A stretch of DNA of 35,052 nt. It comes from Alcanivoracaceae bacterium. Its GTDB lineage: Bacteria; Pseudomonadota; Gammaproteobacteria; Pseudomonadales; Alcanivoracaceae. The first letter of the stretch is position 1. Every line of letters starts with the position of its first letter. The notes beneath the pieces are model-generated. The model worked only from the letters and a program-made list of their open reading frames with translations. It was not told where the DNA came from and ran no database searches. The position numbers and the translations under genes were made by a program. Location of the stretch: assembly GCA_027324795.1 (NCBI GenBank), contig DAHVSB010000012.1, positions 1-35,052 on the forward strand, in the 5' to 3' direction. Below, in pieces: positions 90 to 4,092 of this stretch.

Positions 90-2030
90 CTAGAGCTTTA
101 GCCTTGGCAAAAGCTCTAAACTGACATCTTTGTCATAAAGAGACTCAAGTTGAGATTTTAATGCCGCCATGTCTTCAAAGGTGATGGTTTTAGCCGAGCT
201 ACCTTCTACTTTGAGTTGTACAGTATTGCCGCGTAATGATACTCGCGGGTTAAATAGCTGCAGTTTCTTATTATTTACTTCAAACACCTGTTCTGACACT
301 AAACGTTCTAGTTGCCAATGTTGGTACATATCTTTAAAAGAGATACTTAGCGGGACGCTGATGAGTAGCAATATTAAAGCGATCACTGCTAGCCCTTTTT
401 GCGCACGCTCGATAGGTGAATAGCCGAGGATGAGAAACGTAAAAGAGGCAGCAATGCTAATACCGAAAAGGTTCGTTAGAAACAACAGCATAGCACCACT
501 AAAAACACTCCAGTCCCACCAACCTATGCCGATACCGGCAACAGAGAGCGGGGGCACTAAGGCCACGGCAATAGCAACGCCAGGCATGCTTTTCATGTCG
601 GATTCACGTGCAAGGGCATACGCCCCCGCAGCGCCAGATGCTACTGCTACTCCCAAGTCAATAAGGTTAGGCTGTAAGCGGCCTGCGATCTCACTCGTGA
701 TTTTCTCAATGGGAATAAGCAGGGCTAACAATGAAGCGGTACTTAAAGCTAATAGCATTCCGTAGGCAATGGTCATGCTGGATTCTTTGAGAAGAAGCAT
801 GTCGCGACGCAGTACAGCCATGGCAAAAGACGAAATTGGTGACATTAGGGGAGCGATAACCATTGCGCCAATAATCACAGCTGGGCTAGATAGAAACAAG
901 CCGAATGAAGCGATAAACACGCTTAAAACCATCATAATCAGGTAATTGTTGCTAGCTTTGGCATTATCTCGGAGGCGCAAGAATAGCTCTCTAAAGTCGT
1001 CCTCCATGGCGCGCGTAAAGAATGGTAAGTGGCTCTGTATCATAGCGATACGTGTTTCATTTACCGGCAAATTATCCAAACGCATGGTATCTTTTTTTGT
1101 TTGGGTAGAGGCATTACGCGACGTATATTCATCACTTACATTTATTTTTGCCGCTTGGGGATAGAGTTCGAGCTCTATTTCAGTGTCACTGCGTCTCTTG
1201 CCATCAATATAAAATGCTAGCTCTTTATTGGCGCTAATTTTCAGTTCGCGACTTTTAATATAGCTCACGGAAGAAGGAAGCTTGCTTACAGCTCTTTTTT
1301 TGCTACGTAAAGCTGTAATCAGAAACGATAAATAAGCAGCAATGGACTTTGGCGCAATTAAGATGGTGGAGACTTGGCCATCTTGCACAGAGAGGCTCGT
1401 ATTGATTAGTTTCGCTGCTGCTGAGTTTACGTCATTTTCTATTGAGACTAATCCCGTTATCGCCGTACTTATGTTTTTGCCTTTACCCGTGGTAATGGTA
1501 ATAGGAAAAGGCTTGATTATAAAAAGATTTTTAAGGCTCACACGGATTAAAGTAAACCAATAGAGAAGGTTGCTCCATAGGTTGTCCGCTCTGCGTTGAT
1601 AAGTTTTGCTTCGTTGGTCTAGGAACGGTGTTTCTCCGAGCATCATCATCCCCAGCACGACTTCATTGTTGCAGCGAAGCACGTCAATAGGCTTGGGTTC
1701 CGCTTTGAAAGCAATGGCGATCGCATCTTCAAACTTCCGAGGAATGTGGAACCATGTATTGATGCGGTTCTTTGGGTCAGTGGAAACAACACCGAGTGAA
1801 AAATTTAATGTTTTTGCTAAATCCACATAATGACTCATGTTGTTGTCATTACAGATGGCAACAACATGGTCAGAGTAATCTAAACATCGCCCAGGCTCGC
1901 TAAGAAATTCGTTTTCACTAAAAAGTGTAAGCAAAATACCATTTTTAGCGGCAAACATGCGTATGCGCTCAACGAGCTCGTTGCTTTGAAGAGGGTGGAT
2001 TAATAGCGCTTTGCTAGTGTATGTGCTCAT
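90..2030 (-). CDS. DUF389 (TIGR00341-type) membrane protein with degenerate lipid-kinase-like N-terminus
   Basis: A 646-residue protein in two parts. Residues about 365-560 form a hydrophobic multi-helix region with the small-residue patterns of DUF389 (IIGAMVIAPLMSPI at about 386-399, then ALVPPLSVAGIGIG near 490-503). DUF389 proteins are membrane proteins of unknown function. Residues about 1-300 resemble a diacylglycerol/sphingosine kinase (YegS/DagK-like) fold. The segment DHVVAICNDNN (54-64) sits where kinases carry the GGDGT nucleotide loop. It is followed by IPRKFEDAIAIAF (96-108) and KPIDVLRCN (113-121), which match the family's IP..EAL..I and IDV.R.N elements, and a late YIDGKRR (274-280) matches the usual VDGE strand. 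The glycines of GGDGT are missing, so kinase activity is doubtful. The kinase likeness is my reading and not a database hit. A soluble tail of about 75 residues follows the membrane part. The gene is preceded by a terminator-like hairpin 22 bases before its start. Confidence 0.85.
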   Translation of the reverse strand: MSTYTSKALLIHPLQSNELVERIRMFAAKNGILLTLFSENEFLSEPGRCLDYSDHVVAICNDNNMSHYVDLAKTLNFSLGVVSTDPKNRINTWFHIPRKFEDAIAIAFKAEPKPIDVLRCNNEVVLGMMMLGETPFLDQRSKTYQRRADNLWSNLLYWFTLIRVSLKNLFIIKPFPITITTGKGKNISTAITGLVSIENDVNSAAAKLINTSLSVQDGQVSTILIAPKSIAAYLSFLITALRSKKRAVSKLPSSVSYIKSRELKISANKELAFYIDGKRRSDTEIELELYPQAAKINVSDEYTSRNASTQTKKDTMRLDNLPVNETRIAMIQSHLPFFTRAMEDDFRELFLRLRDNAKASNNYLIMMVLSVFIASFGLFLSSPAVIIGAMVIAPLMSPISSFAMAVLRRDMLLLKESSMTIAYGMLLALSTASLLALLIPIEKITSEIAGRLQPNLIDLGVAVASGAAGAYALARESDMKSMPGVAIAVALVPPLSVAGIGIGWWDWSVFSGAMLLFLTNLFGISIAASFTFLILGYSPIERAQKGLAVIALILLLISVPLSISFKDMYQHWQLERLVSEQVFEVNNKKLQLFNPRVSLRGNTVQLKVEGSSAKTITFEDMAALKSQLESLYDKDVSLELLPRLKL

Positions 2031-2231: not shown

Positions 2232-3611
2232 TTATGTGCGCTCAGTTTTGCGTAGAAGACTAATAAAAGTTGCCAAAAATGCTAGCCCCGCCGCAAGGTA
2301 TAAGCTTAGGTTAGCTGCATTGTTTGGCCAATTGAGCAGCATAACTCCTGCTAGAGCGGCTCCTAAAGACTGACCTAGTAATCTTGCTGTGCCAAGCATA
2401 CCGCTAGCACCGCCACTGCGATGGACGGGTGCAGAGGTCATTATGGCTCTATTATTGGGGGATTGAAAAATAGCAAAGCCAGCTCCGCTGAGGGCCACAC
2501 GCCAAACAATCTGCCAGTGCGTCGGCTCAATAGGTAATAATGCCAAAAACAATAGACCTAGGCAGAGCACGCTGAGCCCAATGACCCCTAGCACACCCGC
2601 AGGGTAGCGATCTGCAAGCCTACCTGCAATGGGGGCTATAACACCAATCATTAATGGCCAGGGTGTGATTAAAAGGCCTGTTTCCATGGCGCTTTTCCCT
2701 AGTGTGTCGAATAGATAGAAGGGCATCGCTACGAAAGCTAGCATTTGCGCGCAGAATGCTAGTACAGAGGTGATTACGGATAAGCGGAACATGGTAATAC
2801 GCAGCAAGTCTAAGGGTAATAGCGGCGCAGGGTGATGCCATAGACGTCGATAAAGAATGTAGCCCATGGTTGTTGTGATCAGGGTTTTGATTAACCAAGG
2901 GTAGAGCTGGCCCTCATGGCCAATGTCTGAAATAGCGCTAATAAGGGCTACAAACAGTGCCGAAGTAAGTATAGCGCTTAGCCAATCAAAGGGATGCTGC
3001 GAAAGCGGTACGTGGGGAAGAAAGCGGAAGCCAAGTAGGGTTGCTAGGATGCCGAAGGGCACATTCATGGCAAACAACCAGTGCCAGCTAGCCATAGCAA
3101 GCACAGCAGCGGCTACTGTGGGGCCTGAAGCGGCAGACACGGCTACTACCATAGCAATGATGGCGATGCCTTGGCCTAAGTGGTTTGCTGGGTAAATATG
3201 GCGAACTAGCGCTGCATTGATACTCATAATAGCGCCTGCCCCTATTCCTTGAAGGCTGCGGGCAATAATAAGCGTTGTTAAATCCTGAGCGAGGGCGGCC
3301 ACCAGTGCCATGCCACTGAAAGTGATAAGCCCAAAAAGATACACATTGCGAAAACCAATACGTTCAGCAAGTGAAGAATAAGGCAGAAGGGTGCTAATGA
3401 TGGCGAGCTGGTAAGCGTTAATAATCCATACCGCCTGGTGCCCTGGCACGCCAAGCTCTTTGGCAATACTTGGCAGCGCCACGTTAATAATAGTGCCATC
3501 AAGCACAGCCATAAAGATGCTGAGCACAAGGGTGAACATAGCCCAGTGCCGTAACGGTTTTGGTAAACCAGTGTGGCTAGATACGGTTGTTTGCGATGCA
3601 GGCACACTCAC
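2232..3611 (-). CDS. MFS multidrug exporter, DHA2 (EmrB/QacA-like) family
   Basis: A 459-residue, strongly hydrophobic protein. After a short polar N-terminus the first helix carries LDGTIINVALPSIAKELG (about 38-55), the diagnostic first-helix motif of the 14-helix DHA2 drug:proton antiporters. A second hallmark is RSLQGIGAGAIMSINAALV around 118-136, the G/R-rich motif of helix 4. The substrate cannot be read from the sequence; family members export dyes, quaternary ammonium compounds and antibiotics across the inner membrane. The length is at the short end for 14 helices. It lies 31 bases downstream of the CopD-like gene on the same strand, so the two are probably co-transcribed. No regulator gene is adjacent. 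Confidence 0.9.
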   Translation of the reverse strand: MSVPASQTTVSSHTGLPKPLRHWAMFTLVLSIFMAVLDGTIINVALPSIAKELGVPGHQAVWIINAYQLAIISTLLPYSSLAERIGFRNVYLFGLITFSGMALVAALAQDLTTLIIARSLQGIGAGAIMSINAALVRHIYPANHLGQGIAIIAMVVAVSAASGPTVAAAVLAMASWHWLFAMNVPFGILATLLGFRFLPHVPLSQHPFDWLSAILTSALFVALISAISDIGHEGQLYPWLIKTLITTTMGYILYRRLWHHPAPLLPLDLLRITMFRLSVITSVLAFCAQMLAFVAMPFYLFDTLGKSAMETGLLITPWPLMIGVIAPIAGRLADRYPAGVLGVIGLSVLCLGLLFLALLPIEPTHWQIVWRVALSGAGFAIFQSPNNRAIMTSAPVHRSGGASGMLGTARLLGQSLGAALAGVMLLNWPNNAANLSLYLAAGLAFLATFISLLRKTERT

Positions 3612-3642
3612 TCCAAATACAACGAGTTAGAAAGCAGTGACA

Positions 3643-4092
3643 TTAAATACCGCCGTAACGTACAAAAGTACCAAGGACCATCATGGTAATAGCTAAGACA
3701 GTGACAGCCGCCGCATGTGCCGCCATGCTAGGAAGCTTAGCAGGGGAGCTGCTAAGTGTAGGTATAACACGTGTTTGTGCGCTAATAGCAAAGCCAATGG
3801 TAGCTAAGAGTAAAAGTAACTTGAGAGAAACAACCCGCTCAATGGGGCTGCTAAATGAAAATATATCACTCAGGGCAATATTGTATTGTGTGGCCATCCA
3901 TATGCCGGTAATAGCAAGTACTACAAGGGCGCTCATTCCTAAGGGTTCATAGCTTTTTTCAAAAGCTAATAAAGCCTCAGTGTCTTTGTGTTTGAGTACG
4001 TTGGGAAACACGCGGATGACCAAATAAGTGTGCCCTCCTACCCAAATAGTGGCAGCAAAGAGATGCAAAATTAACAGTAGGTGGTGGCTCAT
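3643..4092 (-). CDS. CopD-like small integral membrane protein
   Basis: A 149-residue protein with four predicted membrane helices (about 4-24, 52-70, 84-104, 125-145). The N-terminal HLFAATIWVGGHTYLV (10-25) and the two-helix repeats with conserved His and Trp resemble the CopD/PcoD copper-resistance domain and related small haem- or copper-associated membrane proteins. The function is unproven. It is the first gene of an apparent two-gene unit with the DHA2 exporter. A TATTAT box (4115-4120 on the plus strand, read minus) about 23 bases before the ATG could be its -10, but no convincing -35 accompanies it. Confidence 0.65.
   Translation of the reverse strand: MSHHLLLILHLFAATIWVGGHTYLVIRVFPNVLKHKDTEALLAFEKSYEPLGMSALVVLAITGIWMATQYNIALSDIFSFSSPIERVVSLKLLLLLATIGFAISAQTRVIPTLSSSPAKLPSMAAHAAAVTVLAITMMVLGTFVRYGGI

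Follow-up and report, generated by a model that had tools for sequence, protein, structure and literature searches.

The closest described systems are found in two protein families. The soluble kinases DgkB, YegS and BmrU (PF00781, TIGR00147, PRK00861) form one of them. The other consists of the DUF389 membrane proteins (PF04087; TIGR00271, TIGR00341), which were present in 52 of the 398 sampled genomes of the phylum and also, among the controls, in archaea, a cyanobacterium and Bacteroides. Searching the literature on the function of DUF389 or TIGR00341 yielded nothing useful, two of the hits being to DUF3892/DUF3893 instead, and a sequence search found no solved DUF389 structure. A further comparison is offered by AGK, a DAGK-fold protein whose role in the TIM22 membrane complex is independent of kinase activity (PMC8708263). 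In the protein described here a lipid-kinase-like domain is joined to DUF389. Both parts are known families; no description of their combination was found in the part of the literature that was searched.

The window analysed is a DNA stretch of 35,052 nucleotides from an Alcanivoracaceae bacterium. The gene runs from position 90 to 2030 of the window on the minus strand, as do all its parts given below, and encodes a protein of 646 residues. Its limits were set by an ORF with an ATG start and by full-length homologues; in 14 loci in genome contigs the protein was conserved over its full length with 47-57% identity. An N-terminal domain (residues 1-310) precedes the DUF389 membrane domain. In the AlphaFold2 model of the whole protein (mean pLDDT 72.9) the N-terminal domain was well modelled and the membrane part had low confidence. 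The N-terminal domain comprises an alpha/beta half of the DAGK fold, the N-lobe, which binds ATP in true kinases (residues 1-111, positions 1698-2030), and a beta-sandwich half, the C-lobe (residues 112-310, positions 1101-1697). Both are based on the model and on the match to the DgkB structure, and the C-lobe in addition on a dN/dS as low as that of the membrane part. A linker helix region with a near-invariant L321-P322 follows (residues 311-360, positions 951-1100), recognised in the homologue alignment and the model. Next is the membrane region (residues 361-566, positions 333-950), based on hydropathy and on model helices of low-to-middling confidence. The protein ends in a predicted beta-beta-alpha-beta domain (residues 567-646, positions 93-332); this stretch of approximately 80 residues, which follows the last membrane helix, gave no significant Pfam match. 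Since no clear signal or membrane segment was seen before residue 361, the N-terminal domain is probably cytoplasmic.

The protein clearly belongs to DUF389: PF04087 matched residues 390-525 (positions 456-863) with an E-value of 3.7e-42 and a score of 144.1 bits, against a gathering threshold of 23.9, and the core carries the motifs GAM.IAPL..P and VALVPPL. The score for the hypothetical equivalog TIGR00341 (78.6 bits, cut-off 94.75) and that for TIGR00271 (NCBIfam) were both under their cut-offs. A resemblance between GAM..P and GAM.L, considered as a possible internal DUF389 repeat, was not significant.

With Pfam, DUF389 was the only significant match in the whole protein; DAGK_cat (PF00781) was not matched, and YegS_C matched the N-terminal domain weakly, under the cut-off (E 0.2). 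Ten NCBIfam models matched: the two DUF389-type models with their sub-cut-off scores and, over residues 55-310, eight models of kinases or kinase-like proteins, of which PRK00861 was the best (E 9.4e-13, 47.5 bits, cut-off 293). The N-terminal domain resembles a lipid kinase, yet fails every curated kinase threshold. A profile built from 15 full-length proteins matched the diacylglycerol kinase 4wer in the PDB over residues 5-301 (E 1.3e-8). With a profile of 22 diverse N-terminal domains the E-values were 6.5e-12 for 4wer and 2.5e-9 for YegS, and nothing but DGK/YegS-type kinases was retrieved from the PDB at E ≤ 0.01. Modelled alone, the N-terminal domain reached a pLDDT of 80 and a pTM of 0.77. 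Foldseek placed DgkB on top (E 1.6e-14, probability 1.00), and VIA-align superposed residues 6-310 of the model on DgkB with a Z-score of 21.1 (264 aligned residues, rmsd 3.3). NAD-kinase-like folds matched less well (Z about 13), and AGK was also returned (7cgp_B, Z 16.1).

On the basis of these profiles and the predicted structure, the N-terminal domain is homologous to the DgkB/YegS lipid kinases, and chance is excluded as an explanation of the likeness. The likeness comprises the two-lobe fold across residues 5-310 and, in the same order, the IP..EEA helix, the ID.-CN strand, the DG strand and the late DG motif. The first-pass annotation of this DNA had assigned a DagK/YegS layout to residues 1-300. 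Its ORF and the strings it quoted are all present (CNDNN at residues 60-64, IPRKFEDAI at 96-104, PIDVLRCN at 114-121 and YIDG at 274-277), and the predicted domain, instead of showing an unrelated fold, gave confident matches to DgkB and YegS.

Unlike DgkB, YegS and BmrU, the fused proteins lack GGDGT and GTxND, have mostly replaced the Glu of DGE, have no PF00781 match and are joined to a membrane domain. In alignment with kinases, ICNDNN (residues 59-64, positions 1839-1856) stands at the place of (G)GGDGT in the window protein and DPKNR (residues 85-89, positions 1764-1778) at the place of GTxND. CNDNN had already been read correctly at the GGDGT position, and the loss of a nucleotide loop deduced from it stands; however, two ATP loops are gone, and the second, GTxND, had gone unmentioned. 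Among the 36 fused relatives in which the first loop could be read, none contained GGDG and likewise none contained GTxND. Both loops were also absent from three further N-terminal domain pieces, which were broken or contig-edge copies (L005, L029, L042). In the stand-alone kinases drawn by the same profiles, both GGDGT-type and GTxND loops were found (9/9).

All fused relatives have consistently lost the glycines, and a search for a fused homologue that keeps GGDGT intact found none, so the loss is not local to the window protein. No GGDG[TS] motif occurred in the ORFs surrounding the best 30 DUF389 loci, and the longer DUF389 frames that were checked for an intact kinase fusion did not contain the N-terminal domain. 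In column 62, the Asp of the old GGDGT, Asp was found in 23 of the 36 fused relatives; the glycine after it has given way to D, E, Q, A and other residues without a new conserved motif, and the former ATP-loop columns mostly ranked low in conservation. The genome from which the window was taken also contains a stand-alone kinase (contig C139) with AGGDGTLNE and MGTTNVLA. Enzyme function therefore does not rest on the fusion protein. In one genome (G286) three paralogues were present, with frames of 650, 655 and 654 residues (L077, L078 and L079), all without GGDGT.

Purifying selection on the dead domain is strong, most of all in the C-lobe. In close pairs dN/dS was 0.014-0.054 for the C-lobe, 0.07-0.11 for the N-lobe and 0.025-0.045 for the linker and membrane part; these values come from the four pairs with usable dS, the Aliidiomarina pairs being saturated in dS. 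The low dN/dS indicates that the domain is not decaying and that the C-lobe is constrained like the membrane part. Its conserved residues form two sets, ancestral ones common to the kinases (N121, G132, D217 and D276) and others typical of the fused family (T181, K183, T189, P227, S229 and P252); all of the first set and T181, K183, P227 and S229 of the second rank high in conservation. The Asp of the D-G strand, D217 (positions 1380-1382), is retained in 33/36, as found from profile and column conservation. By the same evidence D276-G277-K278 (positions 1197-1205) occupies the position of the kinase DGE motif, where Asp was present in 35/36, Gly in 32/36 and Glu in 6/36 fused relatives. DGE is retained in some relatives (L028, L030, L032 and L033). 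In sphingosine kinase 1 the Asp and Glu of motif 5 were predicted, by analogy with DgkB, to hold magnesium (PMC4466670). A hairpin, T181-G-K183 (positions 1482-1490), was recognised by column conservation in the fused family (T181: T in 36/36; K183: K in 29/36, R in 5/36); the stand-alone kinases used for comparison do not conserve it.

About 40 loci, spread over different genera and no fewer than two classes, had the same fused architecture. The close relatives are from Marinobacter, Halopseudomonas, Pseudomonas, Alcanivorax and Aliidiomarina, and remoter ones from further gammaproteobacterial families and another class of the same phylum. The fused proteins have the DUF389 core in common with other members of that family and form a clade of their own: in a tree built from the DUF389 part, the 38 fused proteins grouped together (support 99/95), requiring one change in 100% of the bootstrap trees. 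This is most simply read as one fusion event, the ATP site having been lost no later than in the last common ancestor. The protein of the window grouped with those of Halopseudomonas and Marinobacter and not with the copies in Alcanivorax, which is of its own family, and the fused gene was missing from most genomes sampled in that family; this grouping and patchy presence make horizontal transfer or differential loss likely. No plasmid copies of the N-terminal domain were found. In one genome of an Alcanivorax-like genus the fused gene was frame-broken near residue 285 (L005 and L010, G015:C1:1349025-1350948), by mutation or sequencing error.

No conserved operon partner was found around the seven relatives that were scanned. 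Their neighbours all differ, from which we conclude that the fusion protein probably acts alone. The same-strand upstream neighbours in the window encode an MFS transporter and a CopD-like membrane protein (positions 2232-4092, minus strand), and neither was among the neighbours scanned around the relatives.

We are slightly inclined to regard the N-terminal domain as a pseudo-lipid-kinase regulatory domain, of which the C-lobe would bind a ligand or partner and so control the DUF389 module. The domain, a descendant of a DgkB/YegS-type lipid kinase, would no longer bind and use ATP in the usual way and would be a pseudoenzyme. Its preserved C-lobe cleft could take a lipid head group, a lipid-like metabolite or a partner. 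Binding might be relayed through the conserved linker helix with L321-P322, and the relay would make the DUF389 membrane module, presumably a channel or transporter, open, close or assemble. AGK, which the same structure search returned, is a precedent for this reading as well. Lipid or nucleotide sensing had been suggested by the first-pass annotation and may apply; of the two, nucleotide sensing would be less likely, given the drift of both ATP loops and the constancy of the C-lobe. More specifically, a lipid-kinase fold may have become a receptor for a lipid (or its head group) through which a DUF389 channel or transporter is gated. This proposal is tentative; if it is true, membrane lipid state would control permeability within one polypeptide. 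The fusion had also been presented as a lead to the function of DUF389. By itself it does not reveal that function, but it gives a testable handle through the ligand of the C-lobe.

The precedent of AGK in TIM22 makes a purely structural role a serious rival, although we consider it rather doubtful. The pseudokinase domain would then be an assembly module, a scaffold for oligomerisation, folding or membrane insertion that binds no small ligand, much as AGK, with the DAGK fold (7cgp_B), has a structural, kinase-independent role (PMC8708263). AGK resembles the fused protein in fold only; it differs in being eukaryotic, in having been described as an active lipid kinase too, and in being a separate subunit, not a covalent fusion. 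That no operon partner points to a signal also agrees with a scaffold, whereas the retention of D276 (35/36) and D217 (33/36), which in the kinases lie in or near the active site, and of the family-specific T-x-K hairpin exceeds what a scaffold needs, which is not decisive.

The same two aspartates, together with the relatives that keep DGE and the matches to NAD-kinase-like folds (Z about 13), would suit a domain that is still an enzyme, with an altered phosphate donor or substrate or with a reverse or hydrolytic reaction via D217 and D276. The partial conservation of D62 and the minority of DGE beside D276 leave room for such unusual chemistry. We nevertheless judge it improbable, with both ATP loops gone, glycines included, their columns drifting and no new conserved motif. 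A spurious resemblance to kinases, or a fusion that arose by misassembly or as a fused-gene artefact, could be argued from the absence of a DAGK_cat match and from the sub-cut-off YegS_C match in Pfam. Against the profile and fold matches to lipid kinases, and the recurrence of one architecture in about 40 loci of at least two classes within one clade, this is scarcely credible. On the favoured reading of a regulatory pseudo-lipid-kinase, a dead lipid kinase on the widespread DUF389 gives a concrete question, namely what the C-lobe binds. The fused proteins also represent a family-wide bacterial case of a pseudo-lipid-kinase, for which the motif-keeping stand-alone relatives are built-in controls.

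DUF389 proteins outside the fused clade had a short N-terminus, an acidic one or a domain of approximately 80 residues in place of the dead kinase. These varied N-termini indicate that the DUF389 module combines with different N-terminal modules, as would be expected if the regulatory parts were exchangeable. The domain of approximately 80 residues (L006-L009) matched nothing in Pfam or, by sequence, in the PDB; from its alternating pattern we suspect a ferredoxin-like fold. A DUF389 protein from the same order (L074:1175-2992, plus strand) had an acidic, low-complexity N-terminus of approximately 250 residues.
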